Translations under genes and position numbers: made by a program | In this document: positions 9,820 to 44,386 of the stretch, one piece after another | Layout of the letters: each line of letters starts with the position of its first letter | Position numbering within the stretch: the stretch's first letter is position 1 | Source of the DNA: Ewingella americana ATCC 33852 | Lineage (GTDB): Bacteria; Pseudomonadota; Gammaproteobacteria; Enterobacterales; Enterobacteriaceae | Reading direction: 5' to 3' | Assembly (NCBI RefSeq): GCF_000735345.1 | Contig: NZ_JMPJ01000041.1 | Location: 1 to 44,386, forward strand | Length of the DNA stretch: 44,386 nucleotides | The notes under the pieces: generated by a model | What the model was told of the DNA's origin: nothing | The model's input: the letters and a program-made list of their open reading frames with translations, nothing else | The model's database searches: none

Positions 9820-10830
9820 GTGCCTGCTCAAATTTCATTGCTTAAAAATCGGCTGGAAGCCTTCTCGCGCGTGGACTTGTTGGGCTGCGTCACGCCGCTC
9901 GAAAGACTTAACCGTCTTTCCGACTATTTTGGTCGCCCGATCTACATTAAACGTGACGATGTCACGCCGCTGGCACTCGGTGGTAACAAACTGAGAAAGC
10001 TGGAGTTTCTGGCCGCCGCCGCGCTAGAAGAGGGGGCTGACACGCTGATCACCGCCGGTGCCATTCAATCCAACCATGTGCGCCAAACCGCCGCCGTGGC
10101 TGCCAAGCTAGGCTTGAAATGCGTCGCGCTGCTGGAGAACCCCATTGGCACCACTCAGGCCAACTACCTGACTAACGGCAACCGCCTGTTGCTCGACTTA
10201 TTCAATACCGAAGTGGTGATGTGCGACGCGCTGCATGACCCAATGGGCCAGCTTACTGAAGAAGCCGAAAAGCTCGAAGCACAGGGCTTCCGGCCTTATA
10301 TCGTGCCAGTGGGCGGCTCCAACGCGCTGGGTGCTTTGGGCTACGTGCAGTGCGCACTGGAGATTGCCGAGCAGAGCGCGTCTAGCTTTGTCGATTTCAG
10401 CGCGGTGGTAGTGGCGTCAGGCAGTGCGGGGACTCACGCCGGATTAGCCGTAGCCTTAAGTCACCTGATGCCTGAAACTCAGTTGATCGGCGTGACGGTG
10501 TCACGTTCTGCCGAGGCGCAGCGCCCGAAAGTTGAAGCCATTGCTCGCGACGTCGCCAAGAGATTGCAGTTCGACGAAGCCCTGCCGGAGATCCACCTGT
10601 GGGACAGCTATTTTGGCCCGCGCTACGGCGAGCCGAGCGAAGAGGGGTTAGCCGCCATTAAACTGCTGGCGGAGAAAGAAGCCATGCTGCTGGATCCGGT
10701 TTACACCGGCAAAGCCATGGCTGGGCTGATTGATGGCTTAGAGCGCGGCCTTTTCCCCGGCTCAGGCCCGATTCTGTTCATTCATACCGGCGGCGCACCG
10801 GCGCTGTTTGCCTACCATCCTCAGGTGTAA
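9820..10830 (+). CDS. dcyD: D-cysteine desulfhydrase DcyD
   Basis: This PLP enzyme converts D-cysteine to pyruvate, hydrogen sulfide and ammonia. The 336-residue product matches E. coli DcyD (328) along its whole length, including [20 protein letters not shown] (PLP-binding Lys57 in GGNK), the phosphate-holding and substrate region [20 protein letters not shown], and the C-terminal [14 protein letters not shown]. It starts with GTG at 9820, with AGGGG seven bases upstream. As in E. coli it sits between fliZ and fliY with the cystine transporter genes, linking cystine uptake to removal of toxic D-cysteine and release of sulfur. Confidence 0.95.
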
Positions 10831-11947: not shown

Positions 11948-12616
11948 ATGCAAGAAAGTATTCAACTGGTGCTGGATTCAGCACCATTTTTATTGAAAGG
12001 CACGCTGTTCACGCTGCAATTAAGTTTGGGCGGGATGGTGTTCGGTCTGCTGTTGGGCTTTATCCTCGCGCTGATGCGCCTGTCCAAGTTCTGGCCGCTG
12101 TCATGGCTGTCGCGATTCTACGTGTCGATTTTCCGTGGAACGCCGCTGATTGCTCAACTGTTCATGATTTACTACGGCCTGCCGCAGTTCGGCATTGAGC
12201 TGGATCCTATTCCTTCGGCGATGATTGGTTTGTCACTCAATACCGCCGCTTACACCTCCGAAACCCTGCGCGCCGCGATTTCATCCATTGAAAAGGGCCA
12301 GTGGGAAGCCGCCGCCAGTATCGGCATGAGCTCATGGCAGACCATGCGCCGCGTGATTTTACCGCAGGCCGCCCGCACCGCGCTGCCGCCGCTGGGTAAC
12401 AGTTTTATCGGTCTGGTGAAAGACACCTCCCTTGCTGCGACCATTCAGGTGCCAGAGCTGTTCCGTCAGGCGCAGTTGGTGACCTCGCGCACGCTGGAAG
12501 TGTTCACCATGTATCTGGCCGCCTCGTTGATTTACTGGGTATTGGCCACCGTATTGTCCTTCCTGCAAAATCGTCTGGAAGACCGCGTTAACCGTCAAGA
12601 CAGGGAGCAGCTATGA
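11948..12616 (+). CDS. tcyL: Cystine ABC transporter permease TcyL (YecS)
   Basis: Inner-membrane permease of the cystine importer, 222 residues as in E. coli YecS. The N-terminal half holds the hydrophobic helices and the GTPLIAQLFMIYYGLPQFG segment typical of polar amino acid permeases. The EAA loop that contacts the ATPase is at IGMSSWQTMRRVILPQAART. The last four bases of the gene (ATGA) overlap the start of tcyN, indicating coupled translation. No separate promoter is visible; it probably depends on read-through from fliY. Confidence 0.95.
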   Translation: MQESIQLVLDSAPFLLKGTLFTLQLSLGGMVFGLLLGFILALMRLSKFWPLSWLSRFYVSIFRGTPLIAQLFMIYYGLPQFGIELDPIPSAMIGLSLNTAAYTSETLRAAISSIEKGQWEAAASIGMSSWQTMRRVILPQAARTALPPLGNSFIGLVKDTSLAATIQVPELFRQAQLVTSRTLEVFTMYLAASLIYWVLATVLSFLQNRLEDRVNRQDREQL

Positions 12617-13366
12617 GCACGATTGACGTTAAACAGCTGACCAAGAAATTCAACGGTCAGACGGTACTGCACGGTATCGATTTACAGGTAAATGCGGGTG
12701 AAGTGGTCGCCATTATCGGCCCAAGCGGCTCGGGTAAAACCACGTTGCTGCGCAGTATCAATCTGTTAGAAGAGCCGAATTCCGGCACCATTAAGGTCGG
12801 TAATATCGAGATCGACGGCAGTCGTTCCATCAGTAAGCAGAAAGAGAATGTGCGTAAACTGCGCCAGCAGGTGGGTTTTGTGTTCCAGAACTTCAACCTG
12901 TTCCCGCACCGTTCAGTTCTCGACAATATTATTGAAGGTCCGGTCATCGTTAAAGGCGAGTCACGCGAGAAAGCCGTGGCCTATGCCCGTCAGCTGCTGG
13001 AGAAAGTCGGGCTGAGCGGCAAAGAAGACGCTTATCCGCGCCGTCTGTCAGGCGGCCAGCAGCAGCGCGTCGCCATCGCCCGCGCACTGGCCATGAACCC
13101 GGAAGTGATTCTTTTCGACGAACCAACCTCCGCGCTCGACCCCGAGCTGGTGGGCGAAGTGCTCAATACCCATCCGCGCCTTGGCGCAAGAGCACCGCAC
13201 CATGGTGATCGTCACCCACGAAATGAGCTTCGCCCGCGACGTCGCCGACCGCGCGATTTTCATGGACCAAGGGAAGATCGTCGAGCAAGGCCCCGCCAAA
13301 GAGCTGTTCTCGAATCCGCAGCATGCGAGGACAAAACAGTTTCTCGAGAAGTTTTTAACTCGCTAG
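12613..13366 (+). pseudogene. tcyN: Cystine ABC transporter ATPase TcyN (YecC), frameshifted
   Basis: The ATPase of the cystine importer. Walker A GPSGSGKT (residues 36-43), the signature LSGGQ (145-149) and Walker B ILFDE (166-170) are all present. After codon 186 (ACC, 13168-13170) the reading frame moves to +1: the family sequence continues as IRALAQEHRTMVIVTHEMSF in the next frame and ends LEKFLTR at 13366. One extra C in the CCC at 13169-13171 explains it; with it removed the product is 250 residues, the same as E. coli YecC. As written, the protein loses its H-loop histidine (VTHE) and runs to 13398 in a meaningless arginine-rich tail. This is either a real inactivating mutation or an assembly error in this read. 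Confidence 0.92.
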
Positions 13367-13373
13367 TTAAAGG

Positions 13374-13675
13374 GGGGCGGCTGCCCACACCGTTTTAAGG
13401 TCAAAACCTTGCGTTGCCACGCAAACTGGCCCAGAAGGCGCGTAAGCGCGCGCCCTCTGGACTCCCGCGCTTTTTTTTGCTGGAAGAGCGAGGCTGCGCA
13501 GGGTTGGAATGGCCGTGTTTCAGTAGCTTCTGTGATCGCCGCGAAGTGCCGTCGCTTAGGCGATTCCCTCAGTTCGGGCTTCGAGCCATAGGTCTCGAAC
13601 CACTCCCTCGGCGTCACTTCTGAACGCGGCTTACTGGCTTCTACACCGTGCCGTTTCAGTGGGTTTGGGTTTGCT
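13374..13675 (+). repeat. Structured intergenic repeat, copy 1
   Basis: First of three copies of a ~300-bp repeat (the others are 13788-14135 on the opposite strand and 44075-44386 in the same orientation). Shared landmarks in order: GGGCGG..GCCC hairpin; TTGCGT-TGCC-ACGCAA hairpin (13410-13425); a long hairpin 13431-13460; CGTGTTTCAG; TCGCTTAGGCGA hairpin (13552-13563); TTCGAG/CTCGAA hairpin (13580-13599); CCGTGCCGTTTCAG near the end. It is the most diverged copy, yet each hairpin is kept with changed bases on both sides. No reading frame is conserved among the copies, so it is treated as non-coding. Confidence 0.8.
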
Positions 13676-13798
13676 CCTTCTCCTTTTCAAGGAGAGGGAT
13701 GGGGTGAGGTTTGCTGCATTGAGCGTTGTATTAAACCACTCCTCATCCCTGCCTTCTCCTCTGAGAGGAGAAGGAGCAAAACCCAAACCCAAGACAAG
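13660..13798. repeat. Central palindromic module joining repeat copies 1 and 2
   Basis: GGGTTTGGGTTTGCTCCTTC on the left pairs with GAAGGAGCAAAACCCAAACC on the right, and inside it CAAGGAGAGGGATGGGGTGAGG faces CCTCATCCCTGCCTTCTCC. So copy 1, this centre and inverted copy 2 make one ~760-bp imperfect palindrome between the ends of two convergent genes (tcyN and putA). The inner hairpin CCTTCTCCTC-TGA-GAGGAGAAGG recurs alone at 38931-38965. The GGAGAGGG..GGGTGAGG motif resembles short intergenic repeats seen in many proteobacterial genomes. Confidence 0.75.
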
Positions 13799-14135
13799 CC
13801 CCCCTGAAACGGCACGGTTGAAATGCCCCAAAACCGCAGTCAAAAATGACGCTGAGCAAGAGGTTCAAGACCTAAGGCTTGAATCCCGCCGCGAAGGCAC
13901 CGCCTAAGCGGCGGCATTTTGCGGTGGAGAACAGGTGTATCTGAAACACGTCCGCCCAGCGAGCGGAGCGCGTAGTGAAGAGCCGGGGAGTCTTGAGGGG
14001 CGCGGCGATAGGCGCCCCTCAAGGCCGGTGTGGCGGCAGCGCACGGTTTTGACCTTAAAAAGGCTAGTTTGCGTGGCTACGCAAGGTTTGAGCGGTGTGG
14101 GCGGCGAGCCCACGACCTTGACCTTGACCTTAAAG
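13788..14135 (-). repeat. Structured intergenic repeat, copy 2 (inverted)
   Basis: On the minus strand this is a close match to the window-end copy (44075-44386) and a more distant match to copy 1. It contains the GTGGGC-TCGCC-GCCCAC hairpin, the TTGCGT..ACGCAA hairpin (14070-14085 region), a perfect 12-bp stem 13992-14003/14012-14023, the CCGCTTAGGCGG hairpin (13900-13911) and TTCAAG/CTTGAA (13864-13869/13878-13883). It ends close to the 3' end of putA. AAGGTC is tandemly repeated three times at its outer edge (14113-14132). Confidence 0.8.
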
Positions 14136-14148
14136 ATTTAAAGCGGGT

Positions 14149-14192
14149 TTTGGGCAGCCAGCCCAAAGGTGCCCGACGATCACCCGATCGTC
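14149..14192 (-). terminator. Hairpins at the 3' end of putA
   Basis: Two short stems flank the putA stop: GACGAT/ATCGTC (14175-14180/14187-14192) overlapping the stop codon, and TTTGGGC/GCCCAAA (14149-14155/14161-14167) directly after it. No T run follows in the putA direction, so these may be stabilising stems rather than a classic terminator. Confidence 0.4.
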
Positions 14193-17100
14193 ATCAAACT
14201 GGCATTTCCCCCCGCAGCCGCGGTATTAACACTCAGTGAACGCTCGATCAGCAGGCGTTCCAGCAGGATATTATCCTCACCTCGTGCGAAACCTTGGACT
14301 GACACTATGGCACCCGCGCGTTTAGCGATGGTCTGGCAAAGCTCGCGCAGCTGATCGGCGTCGCCGTGGTAGATAACCGCGTCAAACTCAGGCGCGGCGG
14401 TCTGCCACTCTTTGGCGAAATCGACGCGTTCTTGAACCGCTTTTGGCAGCTGTTTGAACAGGTCGCGCTGAAGCGCTGCCTCAGGCCACAATACGCGGCA
14501 GCCGGTGGCGGTGATGGCGGCGAGCTGAATCAGCGCGTCTTGCTGATTATCAGCCAGCGCCAGCACGCGCTCACGCGGCAGCAGGGCGTAGGTGTTGCGC
14601 TCACCCGTTGGGCCCGGCAGAGTGCGAACGGTGCCGCCCTGAGCCGTCAGAGCGAAGCGTTCCGCCAGCGCGGCCAGTGATTCATCTTTCTGCTCCACGG
14701 CCCACTGTTGCAGCGCACGGTGCGGCGCTAACAGGGCTTCGCGCAGCGTGACGTCCAGCGGCAGGGTTTTATCCTGTACGCTCAAGGTCTGCGCCACGGC
14801 TTCCTGTGGGCGGCTGCACAGCAGGCGATACAAGTACATCGGGCCACCGGCTTTCGGGCCAGTACCCGACAGACCTTCGCCGCCGAACGGCTGCACGCCA
14901 ACCACCGCGCCAACCATATTGCGGTTCACATACAGGTTGCCGACGTTAGCTTTCGACGTCACGCGGTTAATGGTTTCGTCGATACGGGTGTGGATCCCGA
15001 GTGTCAGGCCATAACCGGCTGCGTTAATTTGGTCGACCAGCTTATCCAGATCCTGACGTGCATAGCGCACCACGTGCAGCACCGGGCCAAAGATCTCTTT
15101 CTTCAGCTCGTCGAAGCTCTCCAACTCAATCAGCGTTGGCTGGATAAAGGTGCCGCGTGACCACTCCTGCTGATCTTCACCTTGCTGCTGGGCGGCTTGA
15201 TACACGCTGCGGCCCTTGGCGCGCATGGCGTCGATGTGCTTCTCAATGCCCGCTTTGGCCTCTTGGTCAATCACCGGCCCGATGTCGGTCGACAGGCGCT
15301 CAGGGTTGCCCATGCGGCATTCGGCCATTGCGCCGCGCAGCATTTGCAGAGTGTGCTCGGCCACGTCGTCCTGAATACAGAGCACGCGCAGAGCAGAGCA
15401 GCGCTGGCCCGCGCTGTCGAAGGCGGAAGCGACCACGTCGGTGACCACCTGCTCAGTCAAGGCCGAGGAGTCAACGATCATCGCGTTCAGACCGCCGGTT
15501 TCAGCAATCAGCGGAACAGGGCGGCCCTGCGGATCCAGACGCCCGGCGATGCTGCGTTGCAGGATGCCAGCCACGTCGGTGGAGCCGGTGAACAGCACGC
15601 CGCGGACGCGTTCGTCATTCACCAGTTGAGCACCTACGGTCTCGCCTTGGCCCGGCAACAGTTGCAGAACGCCAGCTGGAACGCCGGCTTCATGCAGGAT
15701 GCGCACGGCCTGAGCGGCAATCAGCGGGGTCTGCTCGGCAGGTTTTGCCAGCACGCTGTTACCCGCGGCGAGGGCGGCGGCAATCTGGCCGCTGAAAATC
15801 GCCAGCGGGAAGTTCCACGGGCTGATACACACCACGGTGCCCAGCGGGCGGTGAGTGTTGTTGTCAAACTGTTCGCGAATCTGACCCGCGTAGTAGTGCA
15901 GGAAGTCGACCGCCTCGCGCACTTCGGCAATAGCGTTATTAAAGGTCTTTCCGGCTTCACGTACCAGCACGCCAAGCAAGCTTTGTAGCTCGCCCTCCAT
16001 CAATTCTGCGGCACGTTGCAAGATTGCAGCGCGCTCTTCGGGAGGTGTCGCAAACCAGATACGGCCAGCGGCGGCAGCGGCGTCCAAGGCACGGCTAACT
16101 TCGCCCTCGGTGGCTTCGCGGACTTGCCCAACCACGTCTGTCGGCTCGGCTGGATTTACCACATCAATGAACGGACCTTCATCTAACTGGGCGTCAATCA
16201 TTGGCTGCGCGGTGATGGGCTGAGCCGCGCCGCTGAGCAGGGCGCTGGACAGGGAGGCCAGACGGTGCTCGTTGGACATATCCAAGCCGGAAGAGTTGAC
16301 GCGTTTTTCACCATATAAGTGACGCGGTAACGCAATGCGCGGATGCGGCAGGCCGACCTGACCCTCGCTGGCGGCCAGCGTTTCTACGGCTTTCACCGGA
16401 TCAGCGACCAGCTCGTCTAATGGCAGGGTGGCGTCGGCAATGCGGTTAACGAAGGAGGTGTTTGCCCCGTTTTCCAGCAGGCGGCGCACCAGATAGGCCA
16501 ACAGGGTTTCGTGAGTACCGACTGGGGCATAAATACGGCACGGGCGGTTCAGCTTGCCATCGGCAATTTTGCCCACCACTTGCTCGTACAGCGGCTCACC
16601 CATGCCGTGCAGGCATTGGAATTCATACTGGCCGGGATAGTAGTTGTTGCCCGCCAACTGGTAAATCGCCGCCAGCGTATGGGCGTTGTGGGTGGCGAAC
16701 TGCGGGTAAATCAGGTTTGGCACCGCCAGCAGTTTTCGGGCGCAGGCCAGATAAGAGACGTCGGTATAGACTTTGCGGGTGTAGACCGGGTAGCCCTCAA
16801 GGCCGTCTACTTGGGCGCGTTTGATTTCGCTGTCCCAATAGGCCCCTTTAACCAGACGGATCATCAGGCGACGGCGGCTGCGCTGGGCCAGATTGGTCAG
16901 GTAATCAATCACCATCGGGCAGCGTTTTTGGTAAGCCTGAATCACGAAGCCGATACCGTTCCAGCCCGCCAGTTCAGGCTCGAAGCAGAGTTTTTCCAGC
17001 AGGTCGAGGGAGATCTCTAAACGGTCCGCTTCTTCGGCGTCGATGTTAATGCCAACGTCGTACTGGCGCGCCATCAGGGTTAGTGACAGCAGGCGCGGGT

Positions 17101-18151
17101 AGAGTTCGTCCATCACGCGCTCATACTGGGCGCGGCTGTAGCGCGGATGCAGGGCGGAGAGCTTGATAGAGATGCCCGGGCCTTCGTAAATACCCCGGCC
17201 ATTCGAGGCTTTACCAATGGCGTGAATAGCTTGCTGGTAGGAGAGCAGGTAGGCCTGCGCGTCTTTCTCGGTCAGGGCCGCTTCGCCCAGCATGTCGTAA
17301 GAGTAGCGGAAGCCTTTCTCTTCATGCTTGCGCGCGTTAGCCAAGGCTTCGGCAATGGTTTCTCCGGTGACGAACTGCTCGCCCATCAGGCGCATCGCCA
17401 TATCCACGCCTTTGCGGATCAGCGGCTCACCGCTTTTACCGATAATACGGTTCAGCGAGCGGGAGAGGTTGGCTTCATTGTGGGTCGCCACCAGTTTGCC
17501 GGTGAATAACAGACCCCAAGTCGCCGCGTTGACGAACAGCGACGGGCTGCGGCCAAGGTGCGAGTGCCAGTTGCCGGTGCTGATTTTGTCGCGGATCAGC
17601 GCATCACGGGTTGGTTTATCCGGAATACGCAGCAGGGCTTCGGCCAAACACATCAGCGCCACACCTTCCTGCGAGGAGAGGGAGAACTCCTGCAACAGGC
17701 TCTGCACCATACCGGCACGGCCATTGGCGCTTTTCTGGTTACGCAATTTGCTGGCGAGGTCATAGGCCAGTTTGTGCGCGGCCTGCGCCATATCCGCTGG
17801 CAGGCGGGCCTGCTCCAGCAGCATAGACACGGCTTCTGGCTCTGGGCGACGGTAGGCGGCGGTGATCGCCGAACGGTTAACCGACTGCGGCAAAATCTGC
17901 TCGGCGAAATCAAGGAATGGCTGGTGAGTTTCCAGCAGGCTGAGGGCAGGTTGCTCCTCATGGTCACTGATACCCGTCGCGTTCAGCGCAGGGATTTCCG
18001 GCAAGGCATCGCCATTTTCCAGGCGTTCCAGATAGGAATAAATAGCCTGCTTAATCAACCAGTGTGGCGTGCGATCAATACCCTGCGCGGCCACTTTCAA
18101 ACGGTCACGTGTCGCTTCGTCTAGCTTCACGCCCATTGTCGTCATTCCCAT
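14180..18151 (-). CDS. putA: Bifunctional proline dehydrogenase / P5C dehydrogenase and put repressor PutA
   Basis: PutA oxidises proline to glutamate in two steps and, when not membrane-bound, represses the put genes. At 1323 residues it has the full trifunctional layout of E. coli PutA (1320). Residues 1-~47 are the ribbon-helix-helix repressor (MGVKLDEATRDRLKVAA... RTPHWLIKQAI). About 260-570 is the FAD-containing proline dehydrogenase barrel (VKGAYWDSEIKRAQ, YPQFATHNAHT, EFQCLHGMG). About 640-1120 is the P5C dehydrogenase, with the catalytic cysteine at residue 918 in GQRCSALRVL and the acid in ETGGLNA. A C-terminal domain of ~200 residues follows. The start at 18151 matches the family N-terminus MG.TTMGVKL. 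It is divergent from putP. Confidence 0.97.
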   Translation of the reverse strand: MGMTTMGVKLDEATRDRLKVAAQGIDRTPHWLIKQAIYSYLERLENGDALPEIPALNATGISDHEEQPALSLLETHQPFLDFAEQILPQSVNRSAITAAYRRPEPEAVSMLLEQARLPADMAQAAHKLAYDLASKLRNQKSANGRAGMVQSLLQEFSLSSQEGVALMCLAEALLRIPDKPTRDALIRDKISTGNWHSHLGRSPSLFVNAATWGLLFTGKLVATHNEANLSRSLNRIIGKSGEPLIRKGVDMAMRLMGEQFVTGETIAEALANARKHEEKGFRYSYDMLGEAALTEKDAQAYLLSYQQAIHAIGKASNGRGIYEGPGISIKLSALHPRYSRAQYERVMDELYPRLLSLTLMARQYDVGINIDAEEADRLEISLDLLEKLCFEPELAGWNGIGFVIQAYQKRCPMVIDYLTNLAQRSRRRLMIRLVKGAYWDSEIKRAQVDGLEGYPVYTRKVYTDVSYLACARKLLAVPNLIYPQFATHNAHTLAAIYQLAGNNYYPGQYEFQCLHGMGEPLYEQVVGKIADGKLNRPCRIYAPVGTHETLLAYLVRRLLENGANTSFVNRIADATLPLDELVADPVKAVETLAASEGQVGLPHPRIALPRHLYGEKRVNSSGLDMSNEHRLASLSSALLSGAAQPITAQPMIDAQLDEGPFIDVVNPAEPTDVVGQVREATEGEVSRALDAAAAAGRIWFATPPEERAAILQRAAELMEGELQSLLGVLVREAGKTFNNAIAEVREAVDFLHYYAGQIREQFDNNTHRPLGTVVCISPWNFPLAIFSGQIAAALAAGNSVLAKPAEQTPLIAAQAVRILHEAGVPAGVLQLLPGQGETVGAQLVNDERVRGVLFTGSTDVAGILQRSIAGRLDPQGRPVPLIAETGGLNAMIVDSSALTEQVVTDVVASAFDSAGQRCSALRVLCIQDDVAEHTLQMLRGAMAECRMGNPERLSTDIGPVIDQEAKAGIEKHIDAMRAKGRSVYQAAQQQGEDQQEWSRGTFIQPTLIELESFDELKKEIFGPVLHVVRYARQDLDKLVDQINAAGYGLTLGIHTRIDETINRVTSKANVGNLYVNRNMVGAVVGVQPFGGEGLSGTGPKAGGPMYLYRLLCSRPQEAVAQTLSVQDKTLPLDVTLREALLAPHRALQQWAVEQKDESLAALAERFALTAQGGTVRTLPGPTGERNTYALLPRERVLALADNQQDALIQLAAITATGCRVLWPEAALQRDLFKQLPKAVQERVDFAKEWQTAAPEFDAVIYHGDADQLRELCQTIAKRAGAIVSVQGFARGEDNILLERLLIERSLSVNTAAAGGNASLMTIG

Positions 18152-27421: not shown

Positions 27422-28210
27422 ATGGGAAGACAGAAAGAAGTGATCAAAGCTCGTCGTGAAGCGAAACGTGTTATTCGTCGTGATTCACGCAGTCACCGCC
27501 AACGTGAGGAAGAATCTGTGACCTCTTTAATCCAAATGGGCGGTGTGGAATCGATTGGAATGGCGCGCGACTCTCGCGATACCTCTCCAATCCAGGCACG
27601 AACTGAAGCTCAAGGTCATTACTTATCAGCCATAGAGAATAAGCAGTTAATTTTTGCTACCGGTGAAGCAGGCTGTGGCAAAACATTTATCAGCGCGGCG
27701 AAAGCTGCCGAGGCATTAATACATAAAGAGATAGATAGGATTATTGTTACCCGCCCAGTATTGCAGGCCGACGAAGACCTCGGTTTCTTGCCCGGCGATA
27801 TCTCTGAGAAGTTCGCACCTTATTTCCGTCCGGTATACGACATCTTATTACGTCGTCTGGGTTCATCATTCATGCAATATTGTCTGCGACCGGAAATAGG
27901 TAAGGTTGAAATTGCACCTTTCGCGTATATGCGCGGGCGTACTTTCGAAAACGCGGTGGTTATTCTGGACGAAGCCCAGAATGTCACGGCCAGCCAAATG
28001 AAAATGTTCCTGACCCGTCTCGGTGAAAATGTGACGGTGATAGTTAACGGGGATGTTACCCAATGCGATTTACCGCGTGGGGTAGTATCAGGGCTTAGCG
28101 ATGCAATGTCTCGCTTCGAAGAAGACGAGATGGTTGGCATCATTCAGTTTGGTAAAGAGGACTGCGTGCGTTCAGAGCTGTGTAAACGCACCCTGCACGC
28201 TTACTCTTAA
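27422..28210 (+). CDS. phoH: PhoH family ATPase (phosphate-starvation inducible)
   Basis: PhoH is a cytoplasmic P-loop ATPase of the phosphate regulon with a helicase-like core; its cell role is not firmly known. The 262-residue protein shows an N-terminal basic helix (MGRQKEVIKARREAKRV), Walker A GEAGCGKT (residues 81-88), Walker B VVILDEAQN (~180) and the C-terminal end of E. coli PhoH (RTLHAYS). E. coli PhoH is annotated longer at its N-terminus; here the ATG at 27422 directly precedes the conserved part. A Pho box lies 600 bp upstream. In E. coli phoH follows efeB directly; here two genes intervene. Confidence 0.95.
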   Translation: MGRQKEVIKARREAKRVIRRDSRSHRQREEESVTSLIQMGGVESIGMARDSRDTSPIQARTEAQGHYLSAIENKQLIFATGEAGCGKTFISAAKAAEALIHKEIDRIIVTRPVLQADEDLGFLPGDISEKFAPYFRPVYDILLRRLGSSFMQYCLRPEIGKVEIAPFAYMRGRTFENAVVILDEAQNVTASQMKMFLTRLGENVTVIVNGDVTQCDLPRGVVSGLSDAMSRFEEDEMVGIIQFGKEDCVRSELCKRTLHAYS

Positions 28211-38923: not shown

Positions 38924-38930
38924 TTATTGG

Positions 38931-38965
38931 TTTGCTCCTTCTCCTCTCAGAGGAGAAGGAGCAAA
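38931..38965. repeat. Perfect 17-bp palindrome after the transporter operon
   Basis: TTTGCTCCTTCTCCTCT (38931-38947), one C, then AGAGGAGAAGGAGCAAA (38949-38965). It is the same module as the central hairpin of the large repeat near 13.7 kb. It follows the last ATPase gene by 8 bases and precedes the second binding-protein gene by 133 bp, so it may stop or reduce read-through; no T run follows. The rest of 38966-39097 presumably holds the promoter of the next gene. Confidence 0.8.
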
Positions 38966-39097
38966 ATCAAAAGCCAATGCAAAAGCCGCAAACTCTTATC
39001 CATTTTGATTATTTCTAATGCATTTATAAGTATTTAGCTGCTTAGAATCCGCCCCGTAAACTCCCTAAACAAATCATTTTTCGGGAGTTTTGCCTTC

Positions 39098-40746: not shown

Positions 40747-42474
40747 TTAATCCAACTTATAAACCTGCGCAGAAATCGCGCCAGCGTGGATGGCATCGTT
40801 CTGGTCGCCCGGCTTATAGCTGCCTTGGGTGTTATCTCCGGCCATCAGTTTGGCAGTTTTCACCTTCAGCGCGGCGACGGAAACATCGCGCGGCTGCTCG
40901 CTTGGGTTGAGCACCACCAGATAGCGGTCATCGCCCGAGGAGCGCAAATAGACCATCGGGTAGGGCTGATTGACGTCGCTGACTAGCTTCCAGTCGCCGT
41001 CTGCCGACAGTGCCGGGCTGTCTTTGCGCAGCGTCAGCAGTTGGCGGGTGTAGTTGAGCAGCGAGGCAGGGTCTTTGTCCTCTTTGGCCACCGTCGGGCG
41101 ATTGACGTCTTTGTCCACTGGCAGGTAGAGATTCCAGTAATCTGCGGTGGAGAATCCGGCGTTTTTCGAATCATCCCACTGCATTGGCGTCCTTGAGCCC
41201 GCGCGGTTCTTGGTGGCGCGTCCCTGACTGCCTTCTTTGTTCCACAGCCCGGTCTGGAATTTCATCCCAATTTCATCGCCATAGTAGATAAACGGCGTGC
41301 CCGGCATGGTGAGGAAGAAGGTCATGGTGACTTTCAGCTGGTCGAGGGTGTTACGGTCACCGGCGTTTAGGCGCTGGATATCATGGTTGCCGGTCGGTAG
41401 CGAGATATAGCTCTTGCCCTTGGTGGCGTTGTATTGCTCGGTGTAAAGATCGTACCACTCCTTGATTTGGCCTTTGCCCTGCTTGGCGAAGTAGCTGACC
41501 TGCGGCTCGAACTCGCCGCCGACCTTGTTAAAGAACAGCGAGGAGAAGTTATATTTGCCGGTGTGCATCATGAAATCGATGTTGAACCCTGCCGCAGAGG
41601 ACTCTTTCGGGTTGCTCCATTCGGAGATAAGCACGCCTTCGGGATACTTGGCTTTGTACCATGAGGAGATGTCCTGCCAAACCTTGATGGAGGCCAATTT
41701 GCCCGGATCGTTCTTCACCACGCTGGAGGCCATATCCACGCGGAAGCCGTCCGCGCCCTTGTCCATCCAGAACGCGATAATGTTTTCGATTTCACGGCGG
41801 ACCGCCATCGGGCCGGGGGCGTCAATCGGCTGCTCCCACGCGTGCTGCGGGTTCGGATTGGCGTAACCGTAGTTCAGCGCTGGCTGGGAATCGTAGTAGT
41901 TTTTGATGTAAAACGGCGAGCGGCCTGAGTCGGTTTTCACAAAGCTGTCTTCACCAATTACACCGCTGATTTGGTCTTTCTCTTTGCCTTTGACGTCATC
42001 GGGAATTCTGTCCGGCCAGATGTAGTAGTCGCTATAGCGCTGGTCCGGGCCTTTCTTCGACGCTAAGAACCAAGCGTTTTGGTCGGAAGTGTGTCCCGCC
42101 ACCAAGTCCAAACAGACGCGCAGGCCGCGCTTGTGGGCCTCTTCCACCAGTCGTTTGAAGTCGGCGTTGGTGCCAAAGCGTTTGTCGATGGAGTAGAAGT
42201 CAGTGATGTCGTAACCGCCGTCTTTGAATTCAGAGGAGAACATCGGGTTGAACCACAGGGTGTTTACGCCGATGGATTTTATGTAATCCAGCTTGTCGAT
42301 CACTCCCTGAATGTCGCCGACGCCGTCGCCGTTAGAATCTTTAAATGAGGAGGGGTAAATCTGATAAAAAACCGCTTTGCTGACCCATTCCGGCGCGTCG
42401 TTTTTGGCCTGCGCCTGCCCTGAAATTGCCGCGACGGCTAACGCGGTGAATATCGCAATGCTATGCTTCTTCAT
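40747..42474 (-). CDS. Exported GH13 glycosidase (alpha-amylase/alpha-glucosidase family)
   Basis: A secreted glycoside hydrolase acting on alpha-glucosidic bonds. The 575-residue precursor has a signal peptide (cleavage near AQA, residue 23), a calcium-type loop DSNGDGVGD (46-54), the (beta/alpha)8 barrel and a C-terminal beta domain (~490-575). Catalytic residues: nucleophile D247 (GFRVD), acid/base E285 (ISEW) and D365 (GNHD). Region I reads DLVAGHTS, with G where most GH13 enzymes have N before the histidine. It lacks the RLDRD motif I recall for sucrose isomerases. ATG 42474 follows CAGGAGA; an upstream frame to 42525 is not needed. Periplasmic or extracellular; substrate unknown. Confidence 0.85.
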   Translation of the reverse strand: MKKHSIAIFTALAVAAISGQAQAKNDAPEWVSKAVFYQIYPSSFKDSNGDGVGDIQGVIDKLDYIKSIGVNTLWFNPMFSSEFKDGGYDITDFYSIDKRFGTNADFKRLVEEAHKRGLRVCLDLVAGHTSDQNAWFLASKKGPDQRYSDYYIWPDRIPDDVKGKEKDQISGVIGEDSFVKTDSGRSPFYIKNYYDSQPALNYGYANPNPQHAWEQPIDAPGPMAVRREIENIIAFWMDKGADGFRVDMASSVVKNDPGKLASIKVWQDISSWYKAKYPEGVLISEWSNPKESSAAGFNIDFMMHTGKYNFSSLFFNKVGGEFEPQVSYFAKQGKGQIKEWYDLYTEQYNATKGKSYISLPTGNHDIQRLNAGDRNTLDQLKVTMTFFLTMPGTPFIYYGDEIGMKFQTGLWNKEGSQGRATKNRAGSRTPMQWDDSKNAGFSTADYWNLYLPVDKDVNRPTVAKEDKDPASLLNYTRQLLTLRKDSPALSADGDWKLVSDVNQPYPMVYLRSSGDDRYLVVLNPSEQPRDVSVAALKVKTAKLMAGDNTQGSYKPGDQNDAIHAGAISAQVYKLD

Positions 42475-43376: not shown

Positions 43377-43943
43377 TTATTTGTTACCAAAACGGCCAAT
43401 AATCCCAGCGGCACCTTTGCTGTGTCCGTCGAGTTTTTCAAACAGCTGTTCACGCGTCAGGCCCGCAGGCAGGGCGTCCGGCGCTAAGTCGGTGGCGATC
43501 AGCGTGAAGGTGTAGTGGTGAACCCCGGCGCTAACCGGCGGGCAAGGGCCGTTGTAATGCCCGTTACCCTGCGTGCTTTTCCCGCCAACAAAGCCTTTGC
43601 CTTTCGCCAAATCGTTTTCAGCGAAGCCTTTGGCATCGGGCGAAATCCCATAAGCCACCAGATGATTCACCCCCAGCCCGCCGCGCCCCTCGGGGTCAAC
43701 CATCGTCAATGCCAGACTCTTGGTACCTTCCGGCACATTTTCCCAGCTCAGCGCCGGAGAAGCGTTTTCACCGGTACAGAACTGATTACCTTTGATATTC
43801 CCGGCGAACTTCTGCGCCATCATCTCACCATCTTTAAAGTCGCCAGACTTGAGGGTAAAGATCCCCGCAGCATTAGCCAAAGGCAACCAAGCAGCGAGCG
43901 AGACGGCGAGGGTAGTTTTTAACAGTGTTTTACAAGCGGGCAT
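43377..43943 (-). CDS. YbhB/YbcL (PEBP-like) family protein, exported
   Basis: A 188-residue precursor with a signal peptide (MPACKTLLKTTLAVSLAAWL, cleavage near ANA, residue 26) and the phosphatidylethanolamine-binding-protein fold: NASPALSWENVPEGTKSLAL, MVDPEGRGGLGVNHLVAYGI, GHYNGPCPP and HHYTFTLIATD. These residues line the small ligand pocket of Raf-kinase-inhibitor-like bacterial proteins. E. coli YbcL is also periplasmic, and YbhB is cytoplasmic; the physiological ligand is unknown. Gene ends only 18 bp from the DUF998 gene on the opposite strand, with no terminator hairpin obvious. Confidence 0.88.
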   Translation of the reverse strand: MPACKTLLKTTLAVSLAAWLPLANAAGIFTLKSGDFKDGEMMAQKFAGNIKGNQFCTGENASPALSWENVPEGTKSLALTMVDPEGRGGLGVNHLVAYGISPDAKGFAENDLAKGKGFVGGKSTQGNGHYNGPCPPVSAGVHHYTFTLIATDLAPDALPAGLTREQLFEKLDGHSKGAAGIIGRFGNK

Positions 43944-44074
43944 GTTGAATCCTTGCGATGGGAATGTGTTTGAAAAGCATAGCAGGAGGGGGGAGTTATA
44001 TGCATAACAGGCGGGGAGAGGAAAAGGGGTTAATTGTTATTGAAGGGGGTTTTAATTGCAAATTTTGGGGAATT

Positions 44075-44386
44075 CAAGGTCAAGACCGTGGGCTCGCCGC
44101 CCACACTGGCCCAAAGGTCAAGGTCGTGCGCTGCCGCCACACCGGCCTTAAGAGTCGCCTATCGCCGCGCCTCTTAAGAATCTCCGGCTCTTTACTGCGC
44201 GCTGTCGCTGGCTAAATGGACGTGTTTCAGGGGCTTCCGTTATCCACCGCAAAATGTCGCCGCTTAGGCGGTACCTTCGCTGCGGGATTCAAGCCTTAAG
44301 TCTTGAACCTCTTGCTCAGCGCCATTTTTGACTGCGGTTTTGAGGCATTTCAGCCGTGCCGTTTCAGGGGGGGCTTGTCTTGGGTT
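44075..44386 (+). repeat. Structured intergenic repeat, copy 3 (runs off window end)
   Basis: Same orientation as copy 1 and nearly identical to the minus strand of copy 2 over ~300 bp, from GTGGGCTCGCCGCCCAC to TGTCTTGGGTT. Hairpins: 44147-44158/44167-44178, CCGCTTAGGCGG 44260-44271, TTCAAG 44288-44293 with CTTGAA 44302-44307. It lacks the TTGCGT..ACGCAA hairpin present in the other two. Since copy 2 continues at this point into the CTCCTTCTCC central palindrome, more of the element probably lies beyond 44386. The 43944-44074 stretch before it should hold the promoter of the YbhB-type gene. Confidence 0.82.

Follow-up and report, generated by a model that had tools for sequence, protein, structure and literature searches.

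REPs are described as units of 20 to 40 bp (PMC3733652), and a REPIN, as characterized in the published account drawn on here, consists of an inverted pair of such units separated by a spacer and showing compensatory changes (PMC3116915). In Yersinia, ERIC elements are described as folding within mRNA ends (PMC2267715). Our literature search, which took in few subscription journals, returned no description of the element analyzed here and nothing useful on RtT RNA. An initial annotation of one 44,386-nucleotide stretch of Ewingella americana ATCC 33852 (contig NZ_JMPJ01000041.1, the whole of which we call the window) had reported a three-copy structured repeat with one inverted copy and with paired base changes in its stems. 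We found that this observation was real and understated. The count of three was wrong, as the genome (G000) carries about 60 arms, represented by 62 sites of the unit's 24-base motif (33 forward and 29 reverse), and the natural unit, a facing pair of unlike arms made up of copies 1 and 2, had been missed. The repeat belongs to a dispersed noncoding family, present in at least three genera, in which two unlike multihairpin arms that face each other form the unit.

In the window, the complete element lies between two convergent genes, one for an ABC-transporter ATPase (12613-13398, + strand) and putA (14180-18151, - strand). The GC-rich hairpin bases that form the outer part of the left arm (13374-13393, +) are directly 3' of the ABC-transporter stop codon and are overlapped by the ORF at 12613-13398. 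They are followed by a type A arm (13394-13659, +; profile match L031:2895-3160, where L031 starts at window position 10500) that reads inwards to the element center. Within this arm, the long stem, CCAGAAGGCGCGTAAGCGCGCGCCCTCTGG, was placed from the sequence at 13432-13461 (+), and the 3' domain with its stems P1 to P4 occupies 13515-13653 (+; covariance model R1, G000:C41:13515-13653, 140.4 bits). Beyond the central spacer (13660-13803), which contains a further inverted repeat (13661-13709 with 13741-13789), a type B arm (13804-14059, -; profile match L031:3305-3560) likewise reads inwards, with its 3' domain at 13810-13949 (-; model R1, L031:3311-3450, 129.7 bits) and its long stem, CTTGAGGGGCGCCTATCGCCGCGCCCCTCAAG, again placed from the sequence, at 13992-14023 (-). 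Outermost in the B arm are hairpin modules (14060-14135, -) that end 45 bases short of the putA stop end (ORF edge, 14180). The third copy is a half element cut off by the contig end at 44386; it comes after a PBP-domain gene (43377-43943, -) and comprises an outer hairpin module (44074-44113, +; L032:2572-2618, +; BLAST match, 44074-44106) and a type B arm (44114-44367, +; L032:2615-2868, where L032 starts at window position 41500). The other half is probably the arm that opens contig C42, since a single locus, L151, of the related genome G001 matches the outer flanks of the two arms. The inverted repeat in the spacer (13661-13789) is a second dispersed palindromic repeat (CCTTCTCCTCTCAGAGGAGAAGG), which stands alone at 38929-38982, and this repeat or a like hairpin was also seen in several other element spacers. 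Elsewhere in the window, positions 28012-28205 (-) match the Yersinia small RNA Ysr251 in Rfam (147.3 bits).

Across the family, we assembled 206 arms from 114 loci and set aside 20 shorter fragments. Read inwards, an arm runs from outer GC hairpins, sometimes in tandem, through the long stem to the 3' domain, which opens with GTGTTTCAG and bears stems P1 to P4, and then to the spacer. Arms measure about 250 to 330 bases, and spacers measure 22 to 190 bases (22 to about 171 in G000 and G001, where they often carry a hairpin of their own). Types A and B were assigned from a model profile and average-linkage clustering. One locus of G002 (L218:2556-2866) has a 43-base outer hairpin module repeated six times ahead of one arm.

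The stems listed in the initial annotation are present in the sequence. The short stem TTCGAG/CTCGAA of copy 1 is TTCAAG/CTTGAA in copies 2 and 3, and TCGC/GCGA of copy 1 is CCGC/GCGG in the other two; the long stem is CTTGAGGGGCGC/GCGCCCCTCAAG in copy 2, CTTAAGAGTCGC/GCGCCTCTTAAG with one mismatch in copy 3, and a different yet paired CCAGAAGGCGCG/CGCCCTCTGG in copy 1. The outer stem P1 had not been listed, and it reads GCCGCG/CGCGGC in copy 1 and ACCGCA/TGCGGT in copy 2. RNAalifold gave a weak consensus on MAFFT alignments of whole arms because unlike stems misalign, and the 3' domain was therefore aligned instead; its start was located in 137 of the 206 arms, and 102 of these were aligned. 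In these 102 arms, 90.6% of cells were paired, against 84.1 ± 0.3% in shuffled alignments and at most 43.7% in slid ones. The initial annotation had named a chance level of paired substitution as the outcome that would tell against it; what we found was 195 cells changed on both sides, compared with 64.0 ± 5.8 after shuffling (none of 500 shuffles reached 195) and at most 68 after sliding. Further pair types showed no excess over shuffles in the same arms (35 versus 35.4). With the other genera included (129 distinct rows in a model-fitted alignment), there were 372 doubly changed cells against 90.1 ± 15.7 shuffled and no more than 108 slid. Left to itself, RNAalifold predicts P1, with changes on both sides at 4 of its 6 pairs, and the variants of this stem include GCCGC/GCGGC, GTCGC/GCGAC, ACCGC/GCGGT, GCCGT/ACGGC, and GGCGC/GCGCC. 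The long stem, for its part, exists with 49 distinct 5' arm sequences, and it reached a score of at least 10 in 191 of the 195 arms, versus 13 of 195 when each arm was shuffled once. Paired substitution beyond chance and the retention of the long hairpin thus strongly support the earlier proposal that the folded form, be it RNA or DNA, is under selection. The letters of the arms drift, and modules are exchanged, while the fold is kept.

These controls also bear on the most skeptical reading, that the repeat is a product of chance, of coding sequence, or of assembly. In its favor, many of the G000 arms sit at contig ends, where repeats tend to fall. However, the covariation exceeds both shuffled and slid controls, and arms recur within a 4.66-Mb contig, in other genera, and in finished Rahnella plasmids that have no annotated feature at the match. 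This reading retains a negligible probability, and for the family as a whole it is excluded. A coding origin was rejected separately on inspection by eye, as the open frames that cross the arms differ between types.

The family is abundant within its own genus and patchy beyond it. The 24-base motif has 71 sites in G001, 15 each in G002 and G004, 19 in G003, and 3 in G005, while the same motif read backwards, as a control, has none in any of G000 to G005. BLAST matches in G000 number at least 79 (40 of 73 candidates scored). Over 60 relatives, BLAST found the family in 6, all of the same genus, and all 6 genomes examined from that genus were positive; a scan of named genomes returned 39 stretches from four assemblies only (Ewingella americana E4, Hafnia psychrotolerans, Enterobacterales bacterium AwEntero, and one metagenome bin). 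Because BLAST reached only the element's own genus, a covariance model was required for the others. Such a model, which the initial annotation had proposed, was built on the 3' domain and matched two further genera: it hit 4 of the 119 genomes sampled from the family, then 14 of 14 genomes from the genus of G063 and 3 of 6 from that of G143. The former genus is probably Rahnella, since among plasmids the G063 element matched those of Rahnella only (8 records). The window element itself was matched in ten Rahnella plasmid records, none with an annotated feature there; phage records gave no match to the element. In one genome, G147, the model matched 126 times; these matches fall into 43 clusters, and a single array can hold as many as seven arms (+++----, for example).

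Two rules govern how arms are combined. The first concerns orientation: unlike neighboring arms faced one another in 82 steps and stood back to back in 1 (G001, G147, and the typed rows of G063's genus), and tandem copies keep to their own side, as in +++----. Contrary to this rule, 3 of 8 G143 loci show a +-+- order. The second concerns likeness, with no pair exceeding 82% identity between its arms among 14 in G000 or 29 in G001, where permutation gave means of 5.2 and 12.9; this result was reached in 12 (G000) and 0 (G001) of 20,000 permutations. The rule is weaker in G004 (1 of 17 pairs above 82%) and G002 (2 of 14), for which the permuted means were 5.2 and 4.9. By type, the 43 pairs of G000 and G001 divide into 38 A-B, 5 A-A, and no B-B.

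One mechanism that might bar like arms is destruction of the DNA. Two like arms would make a palindrome of some 500 bases, which could be cut by the hairpin nuclease SbcCD, or else would give an RNA rod, and the arms would have to stay unlike for either reason. SbcD is present in both G000 and G001. In published work, a 460-bp perfect palindrome is lethal to E. coli with SbcCD, a 20-bp spacer makes the effect milder, and interrupted long palindromes are lethal only in recombination-deficient cells (PMC4245961). As the spacers here are at least 22 bases long, the published palindrome effect would be mild in recombination-proficient cells.

The placement of the elements is strongly biased. Convergent genes flank 69 of 97 elements, compared with 38 of 386 element-free neighboring gene pairs (and 3 of 167 such pairs that lie at least 100 bases apart), in a tally that relies on a crude ORF caller and whose baseline pairs come from the window and from sequence flanking these loci; 28 of the 97 elements lie outside convergent pairs. 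In G001, the one genome in which this distribution was observed, the 71 motif sites make up 41 loci. Within 200 kb of dif there are 15 of these loci where 3.5 would be expected (P = 7e-7), and within 100 kb there are 10 against an expectation of 1.8; dnaA has 4 within 600 kb, for an expected 10.6. This crowding around dif and sparsity near dnaA is what one would expect if the elements were DNA sites organizing the chromosome near its terminus, for example, by binding a nucleoid protein. We nevertheless regard that role as improbable: the crowding comes from a single genome, no orientation relative to replication was seen by eye, and the letters vary more than those of an ordinary binding site would, despite the conservation of GTGTTTCAG and of the P2 stem across the aligned arms. 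In the flank of one element (L059:417-509, -), we noted a match to the small RNA family OmrA-B (85.8 bits).

The sites are old and largely common to the species, and it is their contents that have been rewritten between fixed sites. A flank is shared with an element-bearing G001 locus by 42 of 48 G000 clusters; of the rest, the window locus corresponds to a vacated G001 locus and 5 have no partner among the loci fetched for carrying elements. Similarly, 32 of 37 loci from G002 to G005 adjoin a gene that also adjoins an element in G000 or G001, 15 of them on both sides. At 53 arm positions compared between G000 and G001, contig-end arms included, 38 arms kept their type, 12 had switched, and 3 were absent from G001, and only 19 of the 38 type-keeping arms were closest to their own orthologue. 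Inversion in place is exemplified by L050 and L163, whose arms are 97.5% and 99.2% identical to the opposite arm, with the proviso that single flips in short-read assemblies may be assembly artifacts. At the window locus, G000, G002, and G004 each have an element, and that of G003 is broken across two contigs. The corresponding G001 locus, L150, keeps the outer hairpins only and so is not a clean empty site of the kind from which the sharp ends and target-site duplication of a MITE could be read; neither a clean empty site nor a target-site duplication was found among the compared loci.

This history has to be weighed in considering whether the element is selfish mobile DNA, with arms that fold as single-stranded DNA for a transposase or recombinase and with convergent sites merely doing the least harm. 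REPs are recognized by TnpA-REP, and an analogous recognition could be imagined here. Both strands of the element fold alike. Inverted pairs, solo arms, intergenic location, compensatory changes, and up to 126 matches per genome are all REPIN-like features, by the available description of REPINs (PMC3116915). However, G000 had no match to Y1_Tnp (PF01797), the only transposase family searched, for which the control in E. coli was positive; the sites are common to the species, with no clean empty site or target duplication; and the genes between split arms, judged by reading the sequences, are host genes rather than transposases. Taken together, mobile selfish DNA is a possibility we take seriously but do not favor. 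The idea of a transposase cargo was rejected by the same reading, in which ORFs of about 190 amino acids between split arms appeared to be ordinary host proteins (a cupin-domain regulator, an acetyltransferase, a kinase-like protein, and a hydrolase).

Whether one strand is selected as RNA was approached in several ways. Among 59 distinct long-stem hairpins, mismatches were A.C in 22 cases and G.T in 2; read on the outward strand, these would form wobble pairs, but since distinct stems share kinship, they are not 24 independent events. The mismatches of the 3' domain point the opposite way (89 G.T and 58 A.C), so that the strand is not settled by this criterion, and the call by wobble pairs was dropped because of the conflict. 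A call by fold energy was also dropped, as it did not separate the two strands (z scores of -2.95 and -2.65; 30 arms). RtT modules (RF00391), where present, lay on the outward strand in 7 of 7 arms. We lean towards the outward strand as the one selected but make no claim of it. Speaking against the explanation preferred below, whole elements are predicted to fold into one rod in which the arms pair with each other (median, 71% of pairs) rather than as two separate arms. Terminator-like sites (a GC stem with a T run directly after it) numbered 38, about twice the 17.1 of shuffled sequences, and occurred in 24 of 42 elements; the window element has none. The hints of an outward strand would suit a pair of small RNA genes that start in the spacer and run outwards, a reading that we consider highly improbable, since spacers of 22 bases are too short for two promoters and promoter-like sites number 1 in the window element (shuffled mean, 0.2) and 0 in L168.

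The explanation that we prefer, at slightly less than even confidence, is a giant mosaic, REPIN-like repeat that is rewritten by recombination, whose fold is kept as RNA at the 3' ends of facing transcripts and in which like arms are barred. Gene conversion or homologous recombination between copies could rewrite the contents of the sites, the selected form may be the RNA at the ends of the two facing transcripts, and the arms would provide a structured end for read-through and antisense RNA between convergent genes. A bolder version, on balance unlikely, holds that these are a class of paired structured RNAs at the 3' ends of convergent transcripts, subject to a double rule (that each arm be folded and that the pair be unlike) while arms and modules, RtT included, are swapped. 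If true, it would mean that dozens of large structured elements are held at fixed places, that shape rather than letters is inherited, and that the two halves are kept unlike. The question of selfish DNA versus working RNA, for dispersed palindromic repeats, would then become directly testable, because one could alter the fold, the strand, the pairing rule, or the site while leaving the others unchanged. The repeat also adds a large, well-supported, and new family to Rfam and gives RtT a broader context.

How, then, does the element compare with known systems? The initial annotation did not recognize the unit as a known repeat, and as far as the Rfam search extends this held: no family other than RtT matched the arms searched at gathering score, and over the window arms the matches below it were noise only. 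RtT itself, at gathering score, was found neither in the window arms nor in L105, L223, L224, L232, L235, L172, or L201. The overlap with RtT RNA (RF00391) is that its hairpin module sits inside 6 G001 arms and 1 Rahnella plasmid arm; it differs in being confined to the apical part of these arms, whose remainder has no match. The modules were noted in L141, L143, L147, L153, and L162 (G001) and in L106 (Rahnella plasmid). ERIC (about 127 bp) and the related small mobile repeats RU-1 (127 bp), RU-2 (168 bp), and RU-3 (103 bp) are, like the present element, intergenic, palindromic, and enterobacterial, but by description they differ from it in length and arrangement. REPINs and BIMEs come closer: they too occur in many copies between genes, both as inverted pairs around a spacer and as solo units, and they show compensatory changes and a mosaic build. 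Unlike them, the element has arms that are about ten times longer and unlike one another, and its fold is conserved across genera in unlike letters. Whereas both ends of a REPIN are the same conserved sequence, none of the 43 pairs in G000 and G001 exceeded 82% identity, and whereas REPINs go with a RAYT, or Y1 transposase, the G000 genome has no PF01797 match. The inverted pair of a REPIN has its counterpart in the facing pair, but the units are not REPs of 20 to 40 bp. On account of its size, its unlike arms, and the lack of a Y1 transposase in G000, the element is filed as a dispersed structured repeat and not as a REPIN, which is its nearest kind.
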